A stretch of DNA of 38,848 nt from DHVE2 group archaeon (GTDB taxonomy: Archaea > Thermoplasmatota > Thermoplasmata > Thermoplasmatales > Aciduliprofundaceae): positions 1 through 38,848 of the forward strand of contig WAOD01000091.1 in NCBI GenBank assembly GCA_015521465.1, read 5' to 3'. The notes below the pieces were generated by a model. The model saw only the letters and a program-made list of their open reading frames with translations, was not told where the DNA came from and did not search any database. Of the stretch, positions 301 through 19,025 are shown one piece after another. The position numbers and the translations under genes are program-made. Numbering within the stretch: position 1 is the first letter of the stretch; the number at the start of each line of letters is the position of its first letter.

Positions 301-3300
301 GTGATTGCTATGAGGAATGATAATTACAAATATGGAAAGAATGAGGGACCTAGAAAAATTGCTAAAATACTGCTGATGTACGGCATTGTTTTTTCTTTGC
401 TCTTGATGCCAATGGGGATGGTGCACGGGGCAACTACAGCGATATCTCTTTCTAAGTATAGCGGGTCTCCTGGAACAAACATATGGATTAATGGAACAGG
501 GTTCTCGGCAAACTCTAATGTGGATATATACTGGGATAATTCGTATCAGGACACAACAACCACCGATGCAAATGGTAATTTTAGCTATCAATATACCATA
601 CCCTCATCAACTGCTGGGGCACATACCATATATGTAACTGATGGCTCTAACAGTGCCTCTGCAACCTTCACAGTGGTTCCTGCTATAACCTTATCCACGA
701 ACAACGGCTATGTTGGCACAACAGTTACGGTGAATGGTGAGGGATTTTCAGGTAATGTACGAGTTTATCTATTCTGGGATTCAACATATCTTGGTAGAAC
801 CACTACAAATAATAATGGGGAATTTACATTCACATTCAATACACCTGCCAGCCCCTATGGGTTGCACTCAGTAAAAGCGATAGATACGGATAACAATCAA
901 GCCACTGTGTCTTTCCTTATTTTAAGTCATATAACTCTATATAGTTCTTCAGGTTATTATGGCAAACAAATATATTATAATTGCACAGGGTACTCAGCAA
1001 CCGCGAGATTATCAATAATCTGGGACTACGGAACTACCGATACCATTATATTAGACACAGTAACTACGGATTCAACAGGATCATACAGTGGGGCTTTCCG
1101 TGTTCCTGAGGCAACATATGGAACACATAATGTAACTGGAATAGATGAATATTCCCACTCTGATACAACCGCCTTCTTTGTTACTCCCAAAGTTGAAATA
1201 TATCCCGGCTCAGGTATAGTAGGTAGCAAGGTTTATGTTATAGGATACGGTTTCTCTGGAAATACCATAGTCAATATAAGTTGGAGCTCTGGTGCTATTC
1301 TCAATAGCACAACTTCAAATCAATTAGGATCTTTTTATGCAAACATAACCATACCCTATGCAACTGCGGGTAACCATTTAATAACCGCTAACGATACAAA
1401 TTCTGTGGAGAGTTCAGCAGTATTTAACGTAGTCCCCAATATTAAGATATCTCCCAACTGTGGATTACCTGGAGATACTGGCATAGTTACAGCTACGGGA
1501 TTTTCAGGCTCAGCGAATATAGATGTATACTGGGATTTTGGACTTTCTACAGAAACTGTTTTATCCACAGGGACCACTAACACCACTGGAACATACACAG
1601 CCAGCGTGACTATTCCCAGCGGCTCTAACACAACGCATACCATTGCAGGAGTAGATGCAAATAATTACATAGCGCAAACATACTATTATCTCGGGCCACA
1701 TATCTATATATCCCCTAACAGCGGATTTGTAGGTACAAACGTGATGATAAATGGCACTTCATTTTCCCCTAACACATCCGTTACTATTTATTGGGATGGA
1801 ACCATAATCACTACAACAAACACTAACACAACGGGATATTTCAGCACGATCTTCTCGGTACCACACTCTGTTTACGGGTATCACACCGTTACTGCGGTTG
1901 ACGCTAACGGAAGCTCTGCAAGTGCTAATTATCGGGTCTTAGCTCACATTATCATCTCTAAGAATAGTGGGTATGTATTTGACAACATAACTGTGCAGGG
2001 GAATGGTTTCAGCGGAGATTCTGCAGTTTACATATATTGGGACAGCGTCGATACTCAAAGAAGCATGCTAACCAACTCCGTAGGCGATTTCACACTTACT
2101 TTCCAGATTCCAGAGGGTACAGCGGGTATTCACACAATCTATGGAGAAGATACAAACGATATCAAATCAGACATCAGAGATTTCCAAATTTATCCAATGG
2201 CAAGGCTTATCCCCAACTATGGTGAAATAGGAACCTCATACAAGATATATTGCTATGGTTTTGGTTCCTCTGTTACCCTTAATATGCTCTGGGACGGAGT
2301 TTCTGAATCATACTATTCAACTACCAATTCCATTGGAAGCGGAGTCATAAATGCAATTGTACCAAACTCTACCGCGGGTCCACATACTATAGTTGTGTAT
2401 GATTCATTGCTTAACAAAGCAGCACCAGTTAATTTCACGGTAATTCCGCCAGACACTCCAATAGCGTATGCTCCTGAAGGGTATGTCAACTCGACTACGG
2501 TAACTCTCCACTGGTCATCGGTTAACAACACTGCGAGTTATACAATTGAGTACAGTACATCTCAAAATTTCACGAACCCCATCATCGTAAATAGCACTAC
2601 CAATTCGTATACACTTACTGGGCTTTACGATGGAACAACATACTATTGGCGAGTCCAGGCAGTGGACATTAATGGAAATGCGGGTGATTATTCAAACGTG
2701 ATGTCTTTTACAATAGACGCAACTCCTCCAGTATCTACAGCCCATGTGAATGAAAAATACAGCAGTAGTACCCATATATTAGTATATTATAATGCAAGCG
2801 ACTCAGGAAGCGGTGTAGGGAAGGTTGAATTATATTACAGTTACAACAATAGTGAGTTTCAAGAATACTCTGTTACTAACATAGCTTCTGGAGTATTTGA
2901 TTTCTATGCAATGCATGGGGATGGTAACTATTCTTTCTATACCATAGCTTATGACAATGCTGGAAATGTTCAGAGATCTCACACAATTTGCTCTGTTGTA
3001 GTGGATACAACACCACCTACTTCATATCTCTCCAGTTTACCCAAGTACACTCAATCACATACTATAAATCTGCATTTTAATGCTTCAGACGTTGGTACGG
3101 GCGTATCATACGTTGAGATTTACTGGAGCACCGATGGATCAGCATGGAATTTCTATGGATCCTTCAATACGTCATCAGTAGTATTTTTGGCACCTCACGA
3201 TGGCGTTTATTACTTCAAGTCAGTGGCCGTTGACGCAGCAGGGAACGTTCAGATGAATGAATCAGTAATTGTATCTACTACTGTTGATACAACTCCTCCC

Positions 3301-4605
3301 GTATCTAATATATTCATATCAGGTACTCTTAGAGCAAATGGATGGTACGTATCTCCAGCGCACATATCTTTAAAAGCTACAGATATTACTACCGGCGTTA
3401 GAGAGATATATTACAGTATCAACGGCGGTAACTATGTTGAGTTCAATAACCCAATAATACTAAGTACAGATGGAGTGTATAACATATCATACTACGCTGT
3501 AGACTTTGCAGGGAACTCTGAAACTCCAAATCATATTGTGGTTAAAGTTGATAGAACTGCACCATCTCTTGCCATTATGACCCCCACGCATAAAGAGGTA
3601 CTAACAGGAGAAGCTACGATAATGGTGAAGGCAAATGACACCTATATGTTGGGTGTTTACTATAGAATCGATAATGGCCCATGGACACCTATCACTAACA
3701 CCGGAAGCGTTTGGAAATCTATATTTAACACAGAGACATACTCCGATGGCGAACATGTAATACATGTTATGGCTATTGATGATGCTGGCAATCACAAGTA
3801 TTCCAATGTTACGGTAATTATAGACAACAAAAATCCATCAATTGTAAATATATCTATACCTAAGGGCATAGTTTCTGGTAGCATTTCAGTCTCCGTAGAA
3901 GTAAACGATTATATTGGTGTCAAAAGTGTGATTTGTAAGCTAAGTACCAATGGATTTAACAAAACATATACCATGTACAGAACATCATCTGGTATTTATG
4001 CCGTTCTACTAAACACCACTGAGCTAAGAGATGGTTCTTACACCATAACAATTACCGCCGAGAATTACGGGGGAAAGACCACCGTGGTTACCTCTCAGTT
4101 CACCGTTGACAATACACCCCCAGAAGTAAAGTATACAGGGAGTAACGTATTAAGCGGAATTGCAACACTAACATTTAATGTGAAAGATGACACCACTGGC
4201 GTTAAAAGCGCATGGATATCTATTGACAATGGCAATTGGATTAATGTTCCAGTTAAAAACGGACTAATAAAATACAGATGGAACACCATCTTACAAGATA
4301 ATGGTGTGCACAAAGTTCGAGTTAAAATAATGGACAACGCAGGTAACGAAGAGACCTTTGAGAAAGATGTGACAGTGAACAACCTAAATTTAATGCCTAT
4401 AGTTTACACGGTGATTCTAATAGTACTAATGATAGGTATCCTATTTCTACTCAGAAAGGATAAAAAGCAGGAAAAACCTAATAAAGAAGAACCAAAAAAA
4501 GAAAAGACTGAAGACATGAGTCTTCCAGAATCTAATGAAAATCCAAATAGAGAAGACAACGTAGATCTTTCAGATTTGGAGGTGGGGGGTGATCTAAATG
4601 TATAA
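301..4605 (+). CDS. Giant secreted/membrane-anchored surface protein with about 8 tandem Ig/TIG-like repeats, an FN3-like domain, further Ig-like repeats, and a C-terminal TM plus charged tail
   Basis: 1434 aa ORF with N-terminal hydrophobic signal, repeated pattern 'I.ISPNSGxxGTxVxInGxGFSxNxxVxIYWD', 'DTTPPVS' linkers, C-terminal TM (LMPIVYTVILIVLMIGILFLL) and acidic/basic tail. GTG at 301 or ATG at 310 are both possible starts. Confidence 0.85.
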   Translation: MIAMRNDNYKYGKNEGPRKIAKILLMYGIVFSLLLMPMGMVHGATTAISLSKYSGSPGTNIWINGTGFSANSNVDIYWDNSYQDTTTTDANGNFSYQYTIPSSTAGAHTIYVTDGSNSASATFTVVPAITLSTNNGYVGTTVTVNGEGFSGNVRVYLFWDSTYLGRTTTNNNGEFTFTFNTPASPYGLHSVKAIDTDNNQATVSFLILSHITLYSSSGYYGKQIYYNCTGYSATARLSIIWDYGTTDTIILDTVTTDSTGSYSGAFRVPEATYGTHNVTGIDEYSHSDTTAFFVTPKVEIYPGSGIVGSKVYVIGYGFSGNTIVNISWSSGAILNSTTSNQLGSFYANITIPYATAGNHLITANDTNSVESSAVFNVVPNIKISPNCGLPGDTGIVTATGFSGSANIDVYWDFGLSTETVLSTGTTNTTGTYTASVTIPSGSNTTHTIAGVDANNYIAQTYYYLGPHIYISPNSGFVGTNVMINGTSFSPNTSVTIYWDGTIITTTNTNTTGYFSTIFSVPHSVYGYHTVTAVDANGSSASANYRVLAHIIISKNSGYVFDNITVQGNGFSGDSAVYIYWDSVDTQRSMLTNSVGDFTLTFQIPEGTAGIHTIYGEDTNDIKSDIRDFQIYPMARLIPNYGEIGTSYKIYCYGFGSSVTLNMLWDGVSESYYSTTNSIGSGVINAIVPNSTAGPHTIVVYDSLLNKAAPVNFTVIPPDTPIAYAPEGYVNSTTVTLHWSSVNNTASYTIEYSTSQNFTNPIIVNSTTNSYTLTGLYDGTTYYWRVQAVDINGNAGDYSNVMSFTIDATPPVSTAHVNEKYSSSTHILVYYNASDSGSGVGKVELYYSYNNSEFQEYSVTNIASGVFDFYAMHGDGNYSFYTIAYDNAGNVQRSHTICSVVVDTTPPTSYLSSLPKYTQSHTINLHFNASDVGTGVSYVEIYWSTDGSAWNFYGSFNTSSVVFLAPHDGVYYFKSVAVDAAGNVQMNESVIVSTTVDTTPPVSNIFISGTLRANGWYVSPAHISLKATDITTGVREIYYSINGGNYVEFNNPIILSTDGVYNISYYAVDFAGNSETPNHIVVKVDRTAPSLAIMTPTHKEVLTGEATIMVKANDTYMLGVYYRIDNGPWTPITNTGSVWKSIFNTETYSDGEHVIHVMAIDDAGNHKYSNVTVIIDNKNPSIVNISIPKGIVSGSISVSVEVNDYIGVKSVICKLSTNGFNKTYTMYRTSSGIYAVLLNTTELRDGSYTITITAENYGGKTTVVTSQFTVDNTPPEVKYTGSNVLSGIATLTFNVKDDTTGVKSAWISIDNGNWINVPVKNGLIKYRWNTILQDNGVHKVRVKIMDNAGNEETFEKDVTVNNLNLMPIVYTVILIVLMIGILFLLRKDKKQEKPNKEEPKKEKTEDMSLPESNENPNREDNVDLSDLEVGGDLNV

Positions 4606-10782: not shown

Positions 10783-13338
10783 TTAAACCTTCCTTTTAAG
10801 CATCGTAAGCACTGAAGCTAATATGACAATAAGAAACTCAAAAAACAGGCCAAATTCAGGTACAGAAGGTACAGGTGTTGCAAGAACCTCGTTGCTCCCT
10901 TCACTCTCCCCACCGGACACAGACGCGGTTATGTAATAAGTATATGTTTCCCCGTTGACCACGTTAGTATCGTTGTACCAAAGCTGATGCCCAGAAACGT
11001 TTGCTATAGCAACACCGTTCCTGTACACCGTGTACCTCAAAATTTCAGAGGGCGCGTAAACGGGAGGATTCCATGTGAGATTCACGTAATCATCACCAGA
11101 ACTCGCACGCAAATTCTGGGGATGTGTAAGTACATTGCTCAGATTTTCAATTTTCAAAGGATACATGTCACGCGAAAGAGAGCTCCCGGAAATCGCATAT
11201 GGCCAATCCACTATACCATCGTGATTTTCATCGTTTGTATCGTTATTTAGAGCCCAATCTCTCCAGTAATTACCGATACCTGACGATGAGTTCCAGAAGT
11301 TATGCCATCCGTCATCTAAGGATTGAGAGATGCCTTTAAAAGAAGAGTTGGTTCCGGAGTTTAGATAGAAATAATTCAAAAATACAGAGTTCCCGCGACT
11401 CTGGTATATCGCCACGCCGTACCCGGAGTTGTTATAAAAGGTGTTATTTTCTATAACATTGCAATCTGAACCTTCACTTAAGTAGATTCCATCACCGCGA
11501 TTTTCTGAGATGTTGGAATTAACAATGTAATTGTAAGAGGAAAATCCCAGCATTATCCCCGAACCATTCACCACATTGGCACCATCTATTTTAACGTGGT
11601 TGGTACCTGCCATTATCACCTCTCCAAAAGTGCCAGATATAGTTCTGTAACTGATATCTTTCAGGTAAAGGATTTCATTTTCATTTACCGTGTTATTTGT
11701 GATTATATGCGTGTTCCAGTAGCTGACATTATCTCCGGATAGTAATATTCCTCCCCCCAAAAGCGCATTTTCACTCATGTTGAATTTCAGAGAATCAAAC
11801 AAATATATTCCTCTACGTAACGCAGTTACCTTGTTCAATGAAACATTGCCCTCTTCTGTGCTTTCAAAATACATTCCTGTTTTTGAAAATTTCACCGTGT
11901 TTTCTTTAATATTCACATCCCCTGAATACAGAATTTCAACTGCAGTGTCTAAGGAGGTTAAGTTATTATTTAACACGCTTACATTATATGATTGCTCGTA
12001 TTCAACTCCCACCTCTCCTTCAAATACACTGTTGAAAACAGAGACATTTTTCACGCCAAACCCGTACAGAGAGTATTTCTCATACCCAAATGAACTCACA
12101 TTGGAAATCGATACGTTATTTACATTTGATAAATACACCCCGTAACTGGAGCAGTAAGAAGTGTTCACTTCACCAATCTTCAAGTTTTTAGAATCGCCAA
12201 CTAAAATTCCCACATCAGCTCGCGTGGCATTAACATCAGAAATCTTCACATTGGAGGAATTTGCCACTATGACCTCCCCTGCACTTCCCGAATATGCAAC
12301 ATCTACCATGTTTGATATGTACTCCACCACCTTACCGTTGACTGTATTGTTTATCATATCGTGAGTGTTCCAGTAAGCATGGTTATCGCCGCTAATATAC
12401 ACTGAATCAAAGTACAATGTGTTGTTTTCTATGTGTATTTTTTCAGAAGATATTATATTTATCCCAAAATTACCGTTGCTGATAATGTTATTACCCGTAA
12501 CGCTGTTTTCTGATGATTTTGACAGAACAATACCATCCATATAGTTGTGTGCCACCTCATTTTTCAATATCTGGTTTAAGGTTGAGTTAAAAAGATATAT
12601 GCCATTGGCAGAGGAATATTTCACAGAATTATGGTCCAGAGTATTAAATTTTGAATCGTAAAGGGTTATTCCCCCTCCCAAAAAAATACCAGAACCTTCG
12701 TTTCCGTAAACGCTGTTATTAGCCAAGGTGTTATTATACGAGTATTCCATGATAATCCCGCAATTCGAATTTTGGGATACATTGTTACCACCCACGTAAT
12801 CTTCAAAAGAAGATGTAAGAGATATCCCGCTACCACCTGTTTCAGTTAAGCCGGTGGCATTGTTGTACATTACTGAATTGTTTACAACCTGAGAATATGA
12901 TGTGTTAACTAAAACTATTCCATTTGTGTTTCCGTAAACTGTATTATTCCTCACAATTCCGTTCTTCACATTGCCAAGAAAGATTCCAGATGTCCCATTT
13001 TTTAATGTGCAGTTTTCCACTATGAAATATGCCGTCGTGTTAATTATGTATATATCTGCCCCAGATTTGCCAGAACCTATGCTCCATCCTGAAATAATAT
13101 AAGGATTCTCTTTGGAGCCGTTTCCCGCAATTACCCCGTTAGATGCATTAAAATCTCCATCCCCGTAAATTTTTATAGGTAAATGAGCCGTAATTGACTT
13201 GATACTCCTAGATATTGTCGGCTTAACATGCTCGTGGGTTTCAACCGTGTTTCCATGGTAAGAAACACTCTGAGCCATAACACTGCCTGTAGAAAACAAA
13301 AACACCATCGCAATCAGCATTGCGGCTGTCCCTCTCAT
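10783..13338 (-). CDS. Secreted parallel beta-helix (NosD/CASH-like) surface protein with FN3 domain and C-terminal VPEF-TM-basic tail
   Basis: 851 aa; signal peptide, many 'NNTVxxNxxGIxLxxSxxNxVxNNxV' repeats, HNFWNSSSGIGNYWRDW, FN3 segment (PQNLRASSGDDYVNLTWNPP), C-terminus PVPSVPEFGLFFEFLIVILASVLTMLKRKV. Confidence 0.88.
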   Translation of the reverse strand: MRGTAAMLIAMVFLFSTGSVMAQSVSYHGNTVETHEHVKPTISRSIKSITAHLPIKIYGDGDFNASNGVIAGNGSKENPYIISGWSIGSGKSGADIYIINTTAYFIVENCTLKNGTSGIFLGNVKNGIVRNNTVYGNTNGIVLVNTSYSQVVNNSVMYNNATGLTETGGSGISLTSSFEDYVGGNNVSQNSNCGIIMEYSYNNTLANNSVYGNEGSGIFLGGGITLYDSKFNTLDHNSVKYSSANGIYLFNSTLNQILKNEVAHNYMDGIVLSKSSENSVTGNNIISNGNFGINIISSEKIHIENNTLYFDSVYISGDNHAYWNTHDMINNTVNGKVVEYISNMVDVAYSGSAGEVIVANSSNVKISDVNATRADVGILVGDSKNLKIGEVNTSYCSSYGVYLSNVNNVSISNVSSFGYEKYSLYGFGVKNVSVFNSVFEGEVGVEYEQSYNVSVLNNNLTSLDTAVEILYSGDVNIKENTVKFSKTGMYFESTEEGNVSLNKVTALRRGIYLFDSLKFNMSENALLGGGILLSGDNVSYWNTHIITNNTVNENEILYLKDISYRTISGTFGEVIMAGTNHVKIDGANVVNGSGIMLGFSSYNYIVNSNISENRGDGIYLSEGSDCNVIENNTFYNNSGYGVAIYQSRGNSVFLNYFYLNSGTNSSFKGISQSLDDGWHNFWNSSSGIGNYWRDWALNNDTNDENHDGIVDWPYAISGSSLSRDMYPLKIENLSNVLTHPQNLRASSGDDYVNLTWNPPVYAPSEILRYTVYRNGVAIANVSGHQLWYNDTNVVNGETYTYYITASVSGGESEGSNEVLATPVPSVPEFGLFFEFLIVILASVLTMLKRKV

Positions 13339-13503: not shown

Positions 13504-14352
13504 ATGGATATACTGTGCTTTCACTCAAATGCACAGCTTCGTAAGCAGATGAGTATGTATTTAGAGGAGATGGATTTCAATTTTGAATGTTTCGATCTGG
13601 ATGATACTTCTGTGATTGAAAACACAATAAGAATTGAGAATCCCCGAATAGTTCTGCTGGAGTTCAATAAGAATAATGTTGCGGATTATAAAAAGATATC
13701 CAATTTAGCATTCACAATCCCCCTAATAAAGTCAATTGATAGAGACATCGCCATAAACTTTGAAGAATGGGGTGTGGATTACATATTCACCGATACGGTA
13801 ACGCAGTTTAGAAGCTCGTTGATGAAAATTCTGATTAAAAACAAAGAATCGCTAAAACACCTTTTTAAAGATGAGAGAGTATTCAAGAACATAATTTATG
13901 GGTACAATTTTTCGTGGGGACACATGTACATTGCAAGTATGGAGCAGAGAGATGAAATTTTTTCACTTATTCCCGTGCTTAGCGAGCGCATAGAAATTTT
14001 TGTAGCGTTAAGGGAAAACCCGTATTTCTTGGAGGGAATACCCAACATCAGGGTGGTCTGGGTAACAGACATAGTGGGAAAAAACAGGATAAAACCGCAT
14101 AATTTGACAATAATAACCGATAACATAATAAAATTCCTGGAAAGCGGCGATAAAAAAATCGTTATAATTGACTGTATAGAATATCTTCTGCTTTACAACG
14201 ATTTCATAAACATAATGAGAAACGTGGAACTAATAAACAGCTATGCAATGGAAAATAACTCTCTGGTAATTCTCATTGTTGATAATGAAGCATATACAAC
14301 AAAAGAGTATTCTTTATTAAAGAGATACGCTATACTCTGGAAAGGAGCGTGA
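13504..14352 (+). CDS. Degenerate receiver-like domain fused to a DUF835-like domain
   Basis: N-terminus follows a receiver-fold pattern (MDILCFHSNAQLRKQM ... PRIVLLEFN ... GVDYIFTDTVTQFRSSLMKIL). The C-terminus (NIRVVWVTDI...IKPHNLTIITDNIIKFLESGDKKIVIIDCIEYLLLYNDFINIMRNVELINSYAMENNSLVILIVD) resembles DUF835. Confidence 0.65.
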   Translation: MDILCFHSNAQLRKQMSMYLEEMDFNFECFDLDDTSVIENTIRIENPRIVLLEFNKNNVADYKKISNLAFTIPLIKSIDRDIAINFEEWGVDYIFTDTVTQFRSSLMKILIKNKESLKHLFKDERVFKNIIYGYNFSWGHMYIASMEQRDEIFSLIPVLSERIEIFVALRENPYFLEGIPNIRVVWVTDIVGKNRIKPHNLTIITDNIIKFLESGDKKIVIIDCIEYLLLYNDFINIMRNVELINSYAMENNSLVILIVDNEAYTTKEYSLLKRYAILWKGA

Positions 14353-14357
14353 TTTAA

Positions 14358-15653
14358 ATGATACCAAAGGAAGTCGCCAAATTCTTTGAGAACGAGGGAG
14401 GGCACTCTCTAATAATCAAAGGGGAGCCGGGAAGCGGAAAGACCACGCTTGCACTGGAAATCTTAGAGCAATTTCGCAAAAAAAAGGAGGTCATGTACAT
14501 TTCCACAAGAGTTGCAGATTCCACATTGATTTCTCAGTTTCCCTGGGTAAAAGACATAGTAAGATACAAACCCCAAAAAAATAATGGTGAAATTAGTAGG
14601 AAACATCTCAACATGCTCGAAGGGCTCATAGAAGAGGGATTTGTAAAGGAAAATATCAGTTTTGATGGCGATGAAGCAATACTTGAAGTGGGCGAGTTGC
14701 TTCCTGAATTAGAAACTATTTACGACTTCGTTGCATCGCATAAAAATGCGCTTGTTTGTATAGATTCCATAGATGGATTGAGCGAAAAGTACGGAATTCC
14801 CCCTGAGAAGATTCTGTTTACCCTCCAAAAAGATATTGTGGAGTCTGGGCACGGCAGCATGATATTTGTGCTCGAGGAGACCAGCACCAGAGGAATTGAC
14901 TACTTAGCAGATGGAGTCATCAGCCTTTCCCACGAGGCAAAGAATAGGTTCTGGAAAAGAGTGCTCGTGATTCACAAGTTAAGAGGTGCAGTTATAGACA
15001 AGCCGAGGTATCTGTACACGCTTTCTGGTGGTCGATTCACGGCTTTAGACTACTCCTCATTTTCAATGGATTTGGCCACTCCAAATGTGGATTCTTTGAT
15101 ATCACTGCTTCAGGATTATTCACGGTACAGGTGTCTTAACTTTGAGCTTGGCGATGGTATTCCAAAAGAGCTTGTTGAATCACTGATAATCGCCATAGCC
15201 AAGTATTCTGGGAATGTGGTAGTAATACCTCCCCTGTTTTATCCCGGTGATTTGCTGGAAACGCAGGCCAAAAATTACGGCGTAGAAAACATGAATGTCG
15301 TGGGCTTTGGAAGCGACAAGCGAGAGATGTATTTAGAAGGCTCGGACATGCTTGTTGAACTTGCCTTTGACGTTTTAGAATATCACGCAGGTAAAAATTT
15401 CACCGTGGTAATCGGTGTGGATACAATGGCACACGTGTATAAAAATCTAAACGACCTTCCATCTCTGATTAACAACCTGAAACACCACGCCAAAGTGGTG
15501 CTATTATCTCCTGAAGGCTACAACGTGGGTGGCGGTATCGACTACACCATACACATGGACGTTATGGAAGACATACCTGTAATCATGGGCACGATTGCAT
15601 ATGGAATAACAAACCATGACCTGAAATCTCTAAAATTGCTACCGTTAGTATAG
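14358..15653 (+). CDS. GvpD/KaiC-like RecA-fold ATPase; intact N-terminal P-loop domain, second degenerate RecA-like half
   Basis: HSLIIKGEPGSGKTTLALEIL (Walker A), NALVCIDSIDGLSEK (Walker B-like). The C-terminal half has FTVVIGVDTMAHV but no GxxxxGK[ST]. Confidence 0.78.
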   Translation: MIPKEVAKFFENEGGHSLIIKGEPGSGKTTLALEILEQFRKKKEVMYISTRVADSTLISQFPWVKDIVRYKPQKNNGEISRKHLNMLEGLIEEGFVKENISFDGDEAILEVGELLPELETIYDFVASHKNALVCIDSIDGLSEKYGIPPEKILFTLQKDIVESGHGSMIFVLEETSTRGIDYLADGVISLSHEAKNRFWKRVLVIHKLRGAVIDKPRYLYTLSGGRFTALDYSSFSMDLATPNVDSLISLLQDYSRYRCLNFELGDGIPKELVESLIIAIAKYSGNVVVIPPLFYPGDLLETQAKNYGVENMNVVGFGSDKREMYLEGSDMLVELAFDVLEYHAGKNFTVVIGVDTMAHVYKNLNDLPSLINNLKHHAKVVLLSPEGYNVGGGIDYTIHMDVMEDIPVIMGTIAYGITNHDLKSLKLLPLV

Positions 15654-15655
15654 AG

Positions 15656-15994
15656 GTGATTCACATAGACAAAAGTACCGCATGGGAGATTCTCCAGCAC
15701 ATTTCGGACCAATATTCAATCAGAATACTCAGGGCTACGCTGCACAGGCCAATGGACGCCATATCTCTGAGCAACCAGCTGGGAATCCCTATTGCGGTAT
15801 GCTACAGGAGAATAAAAGAACTTGAAAAGCTGGGTCTGATAAAAAAGGAGGGAAAAAAGCTAACATCCAAGGGAAAATGGATAAATCTTTACAAGGCCAA
15901 TGTGAAAAACGCGGAGGTGAAGATGGTTGATGGAAAAATCGTTTTAAAGCTCACCTTCCGCTGGGGTAAGGAGGAAGAGATAGAGGTGGAATAG
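15656..15994 (+). CDS. Winged-helix (ArsR-like) DNA-binding protein
   Basis: AISLSNQLGIPIAVCYRRIKELEKLGLIKKEGKKLTSKGKWINLYKA. Overlapped with the preceding ATPase; exact start uncertain (GTG at 15656). Confidence 0.75.
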   Translation: MIHIDKSTAWEILQHISDQYSIRILRATLHRPMDAISLSNQLGIPIAVCYRRIKELEKLGLIKKEGKKLTSKGKWINLYKANVKNAEVKMVDGKIVLKLTFRWGKEEEIEVE

Positions 15995-16451
15995 CGTGCT
16001 TTGTCCATACTCTCATGGATATCGCTATGGGAATTAAAACGATTAGCCATATCGCGAGTCCGTGAATAAATCCAGCATGATTGGCACTGAATTCTGTGGT
16101 ATATACTGGATAATACAGTGCAAGAGTATCTCCCTCATAGTAGAGATCCATTATGAGATGTGTCCAAGTACTCGCTAAAATAATCACCCCTGCATCTATT
16201 AAATTTCTGCTCTTTATCACTATGCCCGCAAACACTATTGCAAGTGGCATCTCAATGAGAAAGAATAGGTTATGTGTGTAATTCTTGTTTACTAAATGGG
16301 CACCATCTATTATCAGCTCCATAATCACAGCTGCAAGCACGATTTTCTCTTTATGCTCTTTCCAGTACGGATAAATGATAATGGTAGCTATTATTGCAAA
16401 CAGCACGTGAAGAATTCCGTCTAAGATCCCGGGAAATGTTAGCTCAAACAT
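15951..16451 (-). CDS. Small multi-TM protein, possibly YdjM/DUF457-like putative membrane-bound hydrolase
   Basis: Hydrophobic segments with MELIIDGAHLVNKNYTHNLFFL and ASTWTHLIMDLYYEGD His/Asp motifs. Its 3' end overlaps the convergent wHTH gene by 44 nt. Confidence 0.6.
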   Translation of the reverse strand: MFELTFPGILDGILHVLFAIIATIIIYPYWKEHKEKIVLAAVIMELIIDGAHLVNKNYTHNLFFLIEMPLAIVFAGIVIKSRNLIDAGVIILASTWTHLIMDLYYEGDTLALYYPVYTTEFSANHAGFIHGLAIWLIVLIPIAISMRVWTKHAIPPLSLPPYPSGR

Positions 16452-16575
16452 ATTTATTAGTTCTATAGCCCTATAAAAAACACTTTTCCCGTAAAAATCA
16501 AACTAGATATTCACATTCTCGCATTTAATTTTCATTTGCGATAATCACAATGCAAAATATTTAAATAAAGGTGAG

Positions 16576-16935
16576 ATGGTATATAATATGAATGGTGAGC
16601 TGGAGCAAATAATGAAGATACTCTCAGATGGCTATGCCATAAAAATTTTAACTGCAAGTTATAAAGAAGAGAAAAGCGCGATAGAACTCAGCCAGGAGCT
16701 CCAGGTGCCCATAGCCGCTTGTTATCGTAGATTGCATGCCCTGCAGACCATTGGATTTATGGATGTTAAAGAAAAAACAAACAGCAAGGGAAAGAAAATT
16801 AAGTACTACAATTCCATCATAAAAAAAGTGAGCATTAACATAGAAGCAAACACCATTGAGATTAGAATCGATGACAAATACGGGAACACAAAAGTTTACA
16901 GGGGAAAGATAATTGCAAAGGGGTATGGAAAATGA
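16576..16935 (+). CDS. Winged-helix DNA-binding protein, paralog of 15656-15994
   Basis: AIELSQELQVPIAACYRRLHALQTIGFMDVKEKTNSKGKKIKYYNS aligns by eye along its length with the 15656 protein. Confidence 0.75.
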   Translation: MVYNMNGELEQIMKILSDGYAIKILTASYKEEKSAIELSQELQVPIAACYRRLHALQTIGFMDVKEKTNSKGKKIKYYNSIIKKVSINIEANTIEIRIDDKYGNTKVYRGKIIAKGYGK

Positions 16936-17468
16936 ATCCCGAAGAAGTAATCAAGAAAATAGAGGCGGGGAAAGTAACCGTGGTGGAATGTTCAAAAATG
17001 CCCATTGCGGAGTTAAATTATCGGATAATAAAACACCTGGTCACAGTTAGAAAAGCCAGGATTTTATTTATATCCGTGGAAAAACCCCATCAATATATGA
17101 CATATATACTCAGCATGCACAAGGTACCCCAGAGAAGCATAACTTACGTGGACATAAACAAAAACTCAAGGGTTCGCTTTCCCCTCACATCAAAGGACAT
17201 GAAAAACGTAAAGATAGGTGGATTTTTAAAGCGCGATTTCATAGCATTGAGAGATTACGAATACATTATAATTGATAACGTTGAATTTTTGAGCCATTTC
17301 TGGAGCGCAGAAAACCTATTGGAGTTCCTGAAGTCAGTAATATTATCCGCGAAGGAGCATGGATGCGGTGTGCTCATGCCCGTAACAGGAGCAAGGGCAG
17401 ACGTGTGCGAGTACCTTGGAAAAGAATGTGACGTTAAGTTAAAAGTCAGCAATGAGGTGAGAACATGA
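16932..17468 (+). CDS. Degenerate RecA/KaiC-like protein lacking Walker A
   Basis: Overlaps the wHTH stop (ATGA). RILFISVEKPHQYMTYIL and YEYIIIDNVEFLSHFWSAENLLEFLKSVILSAKEHGCGVLMPV fit a RecA-like core; no GxxxxGK[ST]. Confidence 0.55.
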   Translation: MNPEEVIKKIEAGKVTVVECSKMPIAELNYRIIKHLVTVRKARILFISVEKPHQYMTYILSMHKVPQRSITYVDINKNSRVRFPLTSKDMKNVKIGGFLKRDFIALRDYEYIIIDNVEFLSHFWSAENLLEFLKSVILSAKEHGCGVLMPVTGARADVCEYLGKECDVKLKVSNEVRT

Positions 17469-18118
17469 GGATTAAAAGCGGCATACCCGGACTTGATCCA
17501 CTCATGGAAGGGGGATTCGTTGACCCGTCCATAGTACTGGTAAATGGTCCTCCAGGAGCAGGAAAGAGCATATTTTCCCTGCAGTACCTCATGTACGGGG
17601 TCTCCCAGGGCGAAAGAGGATTGTACATAACAACCCTCAGCGAGAAGTTTGAATGGATGGCGCGGTTTATGAGCGATTTTGAATTTTTTAAAAGAGAGTA
17701 CTTTGAAGACAACATGCTAATTTACGAAGACATCTCAGATAAGATCAAAACCGAAAGCAGCACCTTAATAAGATCTCTGATGGACACAATAACTGAAACT
17801 ATGCCAAAACGCATAGTGATAGACCCAGTAAATCCTCTGAGAGAATATATGCCTAACTATCGGGAATTTCTTTTTGACTTAGTAGACATGCTGAAAAAAT
17901 GGGGGGCCACGGTGATAATGACTTCTGAGCAAGACTTCAAAACCGAGGAGGAAAGGTACATGGCAGATGGCATAATAGAATTGATGATGAAAACTGAGGG
18001 AGATGTTATAAGAAGATATATAAGAATAATAAAAATGAGGGGGACAAACCATAGCCTATCAGTGCATCCAATGTCAATAACCGAATCTGGCATCTCCGTG
18101 TTAAAGGCAAATTTCTAA
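17465..18118 (+). CDS. KaiC-like RecA-superfamily ATPase (single domain)
   Basis: RIKSGIPGLDPLMEGGFVDPSIVLVNGPPGAGKSIFSLQYLMYG (Walker A), RIVIDPVNPLREYM (Walker B-like), DGIIELMMKTEGDVIRRYIRIIKMRGTNHS. Confidence 0.9.
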   Translation: MRIKSGIPGLDPLMEGGFVDPSIVLVNGPPGAGKSIFSLQYLMYGVSQGERGLYITTLSEKFEWMARFMSDFEFFKREYFEDNMLIYEDISDKIKTESSTLIRSLMDTITETMPKRIVIDPVNPLREYMPNYREFLFDLVDMLKKWGATVIMTSEQDFKTEEERYMADGIIELMMKTEGDVIRRYIRIIKMRGTNHSLSVHPMSITESGISVLKANF

Positions 18119-18996
18119 ATACTTTGCCCGGTTATTTTCGTGTACATCTCCTCGTAAAGCTTTGCCACTTTTTCAATCATATCATCGGGAAGAGGCGGGA
18201 TATCCGGTTCATCTATACCCTTTTCCCTTGCATTTACAAGCTCTGAATAATAACCTATTTCACGATAATACTGCCTCACAAATTCTTTGCTAAGCTGCTT
18301 GATTTCTCCATTTTCATACGCCTTCTTGTCCCACCACCTATCCTCGTCCATTGTCCCGAATGTATCTACCACGTAAATCTCTCTATCTCTACCAAGAGCA
18401 AGTTCCTTTTTCCCATCAACGTGTATTAGCCCCCTTCTTTCTACCTCTTTTTGTATTATTTCATCCACCTTCATCACTATTTCTTTTATTTCTTCAATAT
18501 CCTCTCTGGTCAACCCCCCAATTTCCATAGCCTTTTCAAAATCAACTTTTCTATCATACTCCTCAAATTTGGTAGTTATCTCGAATAAAGGCTCCGGTAA
18601 TGGTTCCCCGTACTCTGGCTCTCTTGTGTAACCAAGGTCTTTATAATTCACCTTTCCCTTCTTTATACGGTCATAAAGGGAGCCGGCAAGATAATAACGC
18701 GTTATGAATTCAAGGGGAATTAGATACTCAGAATCATTTTTATCGGCTTTGTTAACAATTTTGAATTTCTTAACTATCATTGTTGTCCCATTGCATTCTT
18801 TGAAATGGTTCTTTATTCCATAATCCCCTATCTTGCTGAACCAGAAAGCTGCAGTTTTGCACAGTATCTCCCCCTTGCGTGGCACGGATGATGGAATTAT
18901 CTTGTCAAAAACAGATATATTATCCGTGAATTCAAATACTAACTCATTCCCAGCATCGTACACCTTTTTAACCTTCCCTTCCCGTATGAGTTCCAT
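18115..18996 (-). CDS. purC: Phosphoribosylaminoimidazole-succinocarboxamide synthase (SAICAR synthetase)
   Basis: MELIREGKVKKVYDAGNELVFEFTDNISVFDKIIPSSVPRKGEILCKTAAFWF, GLIHVDGKKELALGRDREIYVVDTFGTMDEDRWW. Start placed at MELIREG (18996). Confidence 0.93.
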   Translation of the reverse strand: MELIREGKVKKVYDAGNELVFEFTDNISVFDKIIPSSVPRKGEILCKTAAFWFSKIGDYGIKNHFKECNGTTMIVKKFKIVNKADKNDSEYLIPLEFITRYYLAGSLYDRIKKGKVNYKDLGYTREPEYGEPLPEPLFEITTKFEEYDRKVDFEKAMEIGGLTREDIEEIKEIVMKVDEIIQKEVERRGLIHVDGKKELALGRDREIYVVDTFGTMDEDRWWDKKAYENGEIKQLSKEFVRQYYREIGYYSELVNAREKGIDEPDIPPLPDDMIEKVAKLYEEMYTKITGQSI

Positions 18997-19025
18997 GCTC
19001 GTGCATTGTAAAAACAAATAAAAAG

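Follow-up and report, generated by a model that had tools for sequence, protein, structure and literature searches.

KaiC-like ATPases are widespread in archaea, with targets that are mostly unknown, and a 2017 proposal in mBio reportedly casts them as signal-transduction hubs. In haloarchaea, GvpD is a P-loop regulator. Breakdown of GvpE needs the P-loop of GvpD, and GvpE activates from 20-nt sites made of two 8-nt parts with a 4-nt spacer, adjacent to the B recognition element (BRE) (PMC4390858). DUF835 is an inactivated KaiC (iKaiC) domain, and the architecture joining a receiver (REC) to DUF835 is known, with Thermoplasmata among its carriers (PMC5847659). We analyzed a 38,848-nt stretch (the window; contig WAOD01000091.1, assembly GCA_015521465.1) from the 1.5-Mb genome of a DHVE2 group archaeon, whose relatives carry the names DHVE2 group and Aciduliprofundum. 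Both are archaea of deep-sea vents. The subject is a block of seven genes (A to G) at 13,504-18,118. The six open reading frames (ORFs) A, B, C, E, F and G of an initial annotation had the positions, strand and spacing first noted; this gene set stood, and the antisense gene D and a shared promoter element had been overlooked.

The module of KaiC-family and winged helix-turn-helix (wHTH) genes is real, conserved and wider than first noted, and is a variant of archaeal KaiC signaling. With a probability of about 0.6, we read it as a conserved archaeal KaiC-family signaling module with its own DNA-binding output, in which C and E would act on a promoter box and the ATPases would gate them. The 39-bp promoter element and the box shared by KaiC operons are new in this analysis. 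Together, block and recurrent box suggest a self-regulating signaling circuit, and they name a putative DNA site with which it can be tested.

Cassette 1, on the plus strand, contains A (13,504-14,352; a weak pseudo-receiver-like N-terminus plus DUF835 of the inactivated KaiC type), B (14,358-15,653; a GvpD/KaiC-like ATPase with an intact P-loop in its first half and a second half, RecA-like by its model, without one) and C (15,656-15,994; a wHTH protein with a GTG start). D (15,951-16,451, minus strand) encodes a YdjM-like membrane protein antisense between C and E. The promoter element (16,527-16,565, plus strand) contains a 20-bp box (16,529-16,548) followed by the BRE/TATA of E. Cassette 2, also on the plus strand, contains E (16,576-16,935; a wHTH paralogue of C), F (16,932-17,468; a KaiC/ArlH-fold protein without P-loop, in which P52, H53 and Y55 are invariant) and G (17,465-18,118; a one-domain KaiC ATPase retaining Walker A and a KMRGT.H motif). 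Genes within each cassette abut or overlap as annotated, with gaps of 5 nt (A-B) and 2 nt (B-C) and overlaps of 4 nt each (E/F and F/G).

Likeness to GvpD/GvpE and archaeal KaiC systems

As in haloarchaeal GvpD/GvpE, the gene for a GvpD-family P-loop protein adjoins that for a small transcription regulator; divergent promoters and 20-nt regulator sites adjacent to the BRE (PMC4390858) have their counterpart in the block. However, the block has winged helices whereas GvpE is leucine-zipper-like; it further includes a KaiC gene and KaiC partners lacking a P-loop, and its box also occurs at other KaiC operons. No gvp structural genes were found among the window genes searched, with no genome-wide search made. 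Neither a GvpE-type partner nor gas vesicle control was found, and a gas-vesicle role is not indicated. By analogy, the block may still work like GvpD/GvpE.

Like KaiC hubs and REC-DUF835 proteins (PMC5847659), the locus pairs KaiC ATPases with DUF835 (inactivated KaiC) partners in signaling; unlike them, it is a seven-gene block of fixed composition that has two winged helices, a shared promoter element and a degenerate receiver-like part. ArlH/FlaH is the closest solved fold of F (4yds), but F lacks Walker A and no archaellum context was seen in the block. In Haloferax volcanii, a KaiC-like protein, CirA, is proposed to tune the transcription regulator CsmR; by contrast with the conserved block and shared box described here, these are separate loci linked by overlapping transcriptional effects (PMC13286277). 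The locus offers a fixed set of partners: a pair of winged helices, a KaiC gene abutting a P-loop-less one, and a GvpD-like ATPase.

Conservation of the block and its promoter box

The family sample comprised 18 genomes (Aciduliprofundum/DHVE2), and the cultured Aciduliprofundum boonei is presumably among the block carriers. A-B-C-D-E-F-G lay on one contig, followed by purC, in 13 of the 18. Consistent pieces of the block were found at contig ends in three more (G001, G005 and G006), and two genomes of 72-75% completeness (G010 and G016) lacked any F match and matched A and B only distantly. Flanking genes on both sides, purC excepted, were lost between genera, and general synteny was rejected on this ground as the cause of the block, again with the exception of purC. 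Beyond the family, Aciduliprofundum sp. JdFR-45 (G021, family f5, locus L101) carried A-B-C-E'-F-G contiguously on one strand, with D and purC both absent. Co-localization of the six genes in related genomes, on which the initial annotation had staked its reading, was seen while the flanks were lost, with one array in another family.

Across the class, the winged-helix family was present in 162 of 400 sampled genomes. A homologue of A, B, F or G lay near the wHTH gene at 25 of 56 sampled loci, which were chosen from class-wide matches, are not phylogenetically independent and come with no background rate of KaiC neighbors; B beside one or two wHTH genes was commonest. The subsets B-wHTH, wHTH-D-F-G and F-G recurred across Thermoplasmata. 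F-G pairs stood without the rest in Methanomassiliicoccales and one further Thermoplasmatota genome, and the DUF835-GvpD pair stood alone in family f6 of the order. Such isolated subsets, B-wHTH in many families and F-G in Methanomassiliicoccales, would suit two separate systems, B-wHTH and wHTH-F-G, each with its own regulator and neighbors only by history, as would a strong box before cassette 2 only, the match before A being a weak half-match confined to one genus. However, this reading is improbable given the joint retention across the family while flanks were lost, the contiguous array in G021, and family f17, where wHTH-wHTH-D-F-G is collinear and B is present too. In several families, a 289-aa coiled-coil-looking protein followed a B-wHTH-wHTH cassette (L229:6199-7068, L249:3608-4477, L256:3704-4573 and L271:3599-4468).

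In the D/E promoter region, 27 of the 39 columns of the element were invariant across 15 genomes, and only 1 of 45 and 0 of 22 columns were invariant in the stretches beside it. The flanks had diverged, and slow background divergence was therefore rejected as the source of the element. With a sequence-only model, each of the 15 genomes had one strong copy (E < 1e-11). The core TTTTCATTTNNRATAATCAC (0-1 mismatch) had 34 occurrences, spread over 17 of the 18 family genomes; its reversed control had none in the 18, and at the same stringency TTTTCATTTNNRATAATCAC matched once in the order's 43 other genomes. Sixteen boxes belonged to E promoters; two of these, at two contig ends in G001, represent a single promoter. 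Another 15 preceded a KaiC gene, with a zinc-ribbon gene next in the loci examined, and the remaining three preceded a KaiC gene that, where the contig extends far enough to tell, is abutted by an F-like gene. All 34 sites were at KaiC-system genes, and the box was rejected on this basis as a general promoter element; it connects KaiC operons of three kinds and makes the output step approachable with small proteins and short DNA. Sites with two mismatches varied between genomes and were not conserved, and were therefore treated as chance. Exact TGATWATCA was absent from the window, whose copy reads GCGATAATCAC.

From box end to start codon, 38-40 nt were counted wherever the contig continued, the second ATG being used where two lie close; contig ends truncated two sites, one at E and one at a KaiC gene, which gave no distance. 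This spacing suggests short or absent leaders. In the window, the start of E is probably 16,588, not 16,576, because the second ATG keeps the distance seen in the relatives.

Elsewhere in the class, TGATAATCA lay 35-110 bp upstream of 9 of 69 wHTH-family genes versus 5 of 275 other ORFs (Fisher p = 3e-4); in a 130-bp window the counts were 10 of 69 versus 4 of 255. Of the four other ORFs with a site in the 130-bp window, two head wHTH operons (L223 and L226) and another is the D-like gene at L223. Nine of the ten TGATAATCA-bearing wHTH genes had PIAACYR[RK] as their recognition helix.

Several observations touch the box loci. The genome of the window has a second KaiC region (L120; G000:C1, 3,416-10,561), in which the box (3,479-3,498) precedes a KaiC plus zinc-ribbon operon, and KaiC, DUF835 and GvpD-like genes and an intact receiver gene (Response_reg, 3e-22) lie downstream. 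At L128:5954-7221 and L134:3816-5095, the box is followed by KaiC overlapped by a P-loop-less F/DUF835-like gene, a paralogous pair. Large cadherin/Ig-like proteins head the wHTH-wHTH operons with TGATAATCA upstream in two other families (L223:2313-4931 and L226:4749-7430).

KaiC-family and winged-helix proteins of the block

Residues 149-274 of A matched DUF835 in Pfam (2.1e-33; 115.4 bits versus a cut-off of 33.1), and the domain was present in all 15 A homologues. The N-terminus gave weak matches to a designed Rossmann fold (3.4e-4) and CheY (0.27). Profile searches found no Response_reg match in the N-termini of 15 A members, and alignment by eye placed Glu or another residue at the expected phospho-acceptor Asp position. 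A receiver identity is plausible but weak for this region. In G011, A was split into two ORFs in different frames (L100:4713-5559), by a frameshift or a sequence error.

B matched GvpD_P-loop (PF07088) at 7.5e-20 (72 bits versus 24) and KaiC at 1.9e-13. PF07088 and the GxPGSGKTT motif were each present in 15 of 15 B homologues, and the alignment of these homologues showed a second half without a P-loop. The predicted structure of B had a predicted local distance difference test score (pLDDT) of 86 and a predicted template modeling score (pTM) of 0.81. Two-domain KaiC structures aligned with it over about 480-500 columns, most of the length of B, at a template modeling score of 0.38, which is low because the two domains are differently arranged; the model indicates a RecA-like second half. 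GvpD basic region 2 (PF20440) was not among the matches listed for the 15 B homologues at E 0.01, and was found in a Thermoplasmatales homologue (2.1e-10).

G was a KaiC protein (PF06745; 3e-50, 171.2 bits versus a cut-off of 26.6), and Walker A was retained in all 16 G homologues. No Pfam match was obtained for F. Profile comparison linked F to G modestly (P 5.7e-4), and the pairs F-A, F-B and A-B gave nothing usable; the fold of F was therefore settled by structure prediction. The F model (pLDDT 86, pTM 0.87) matched ArlH/FlaH (4yds, 1.7e-5) and KaiC (2.2e-5), and Walker A was missing from the alignment of all 16 F homologues, F being a KaiC/ArlH-fold protein without Walker A. Identity of F was 26-34% outside close relatives.

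The initial annotation had assigned DUF835 and P-loop-less RecA domains, and profile searches, homologue alignments and fold comparison agree. For cassette 1, its GvpD/KaiC-like ATPase, wHTH and P-loop-less second half also stood, and only the receiver part of A was weak. Cassette 2 was recovered as proposed, namely a wHTH paralogue, a RecA-like protein lacking Walker A (F, by its predicted fold) and a KaiC ATPase (G). Where the initial annotation gave each cassette one intact P-loop domain, one P-loop-less RecA domain and one wHTH, cassette 1 has two P-loop-less RecA-type domains because DUF835 is itself an inactivated KaiC domain.

A pseudo-receiver-like protein and KaiC-type ATPases with a winged-helix output also resemble the parts of a Kai clock, and the KaiC folds and a weak KaiA_N match (0.029) in one A homologue would fit a timekeeping oscillator. 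However, KaiA, KaiB and a two-domain KaiC were not found together in the locus proteins, which gave no KaiB or full KaiA match, although no genome-wide search was made; G is a single-domain protein, and B has no P-loop in its second half. We consider an oscillator very improbable.

C was a winged HTH (HTH_24, 26.2 bits versus a cut-off of 21.9). E matched winged-HTH profiles only below cut-off, but phmmer clearly identified it as a paralogue of C (E-values 7e-16 to 4e-17). Their joint profile matched ArsR-like PDB relatives (best 2p4w, 1.9e-5), and the recognition helix was near-identical between them. Identity of C was 54-100% across the family plus G021, and at least 64% within the family.

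D overlaps the end of C by 44 bp and occurred in every intact family copy; it is part of the conserved block. Its invariant residues were E45, D49, H52, N55, T59, H60, H98, D102 and E106, and its conserved histidines and aspartates are of the same type as in YdjM (PF04307). However, window D itself (14.1) and the L088 homologue (19.3) were below the YdjM cut-off of 29, whereas the f17 homologue (L257) scored 31.1. In f17, the YdjM gene sits between the wHTH pair and F-G.

The putative circuit and the surroundings of the block

In the proposed circuit, C and/or E would bind the box (TTTTCATTTNNRATAATCAC), which lies immediately before BRE/TATA. They would autoregulate the E-F-G operon, perhaps along with D, and coordinate KaiC operons of two further kinds. 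Activation rather than repression would be expected because the box is just upstream of the BRE, like GvpE sites. ATP-binding B and G, with P-loop-less A, F and the second half of B, may form nucleotide-dependent assemblies that hold, release or destabilize the winged-helix regulators, as GvpD does with GvpE. Candidate inputs are the A N-terminus and the membrane protein D. The earlier reading of the six genes as one switch with winged-helix output is supported, and the winged helices gain support as output because the conserved E promoter element recurs at other KaiC operons.

The module could instead deliver its output at the protein level, for example through D or surface machinery, with C and E only autoregulating or another regulator using the box. 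We consider this rather unlikely. Archaeal KaiC-family ATPases are tied to type IV pili and archaella (PMC4858521), D is a conserved block member, and the boxes are all at KaiC-system genes with none at an obvious effector operon. However, both winged helices were kept in every intact copy, C was far better conserved than F (at least 64% versus 26-34% identity), and wHTH genes of other families were enriched for TGATAATCA in their upstream regions.

A DNA-binding output through C and E is weakened by several points. The box was not found in G021 despite the presence of the genes, and another regulator may bind it instead of C/E. Activation is suggested by analogy only, from the position upstream of the BRE. 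Exact TGATAATCA occurred at only 10 of 69 class wHTH genes, and PIAACYR[RK] was also the commonest helix among wHTH genes without it; the helix-site match is therefore consistent but not discriminating. The class-wide loci are neither independent nor matched by a background rate. A class-wide circuit, in which winged helices whose near-constant recognition helix is PIAACYRR/K would read a TGATAATCA-type box under gating by KaiC/P-loop-less KaiC heteromers, is accordingly left as a tentative and somewhat doubtful extension. If it were true, the KaiC genes of a cell would make up a single self-regulated network, and the output arm of the archaeal hubs could be identified.

Around the block, a purC-like gene, named by reading its sequence, is convergent with G (18,115-19,017) and was kept in family copies and not in G021. 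Upstream of A lies a NosD/beta-helix surface-type protein (10,783-13,338), with a homologue at that place in the relatives' loci only in G007 and, in opposite orientation, G005. Positions 301-4,605 of the window encode a very large protein that carries Ig-like and fibronectin type III domains.

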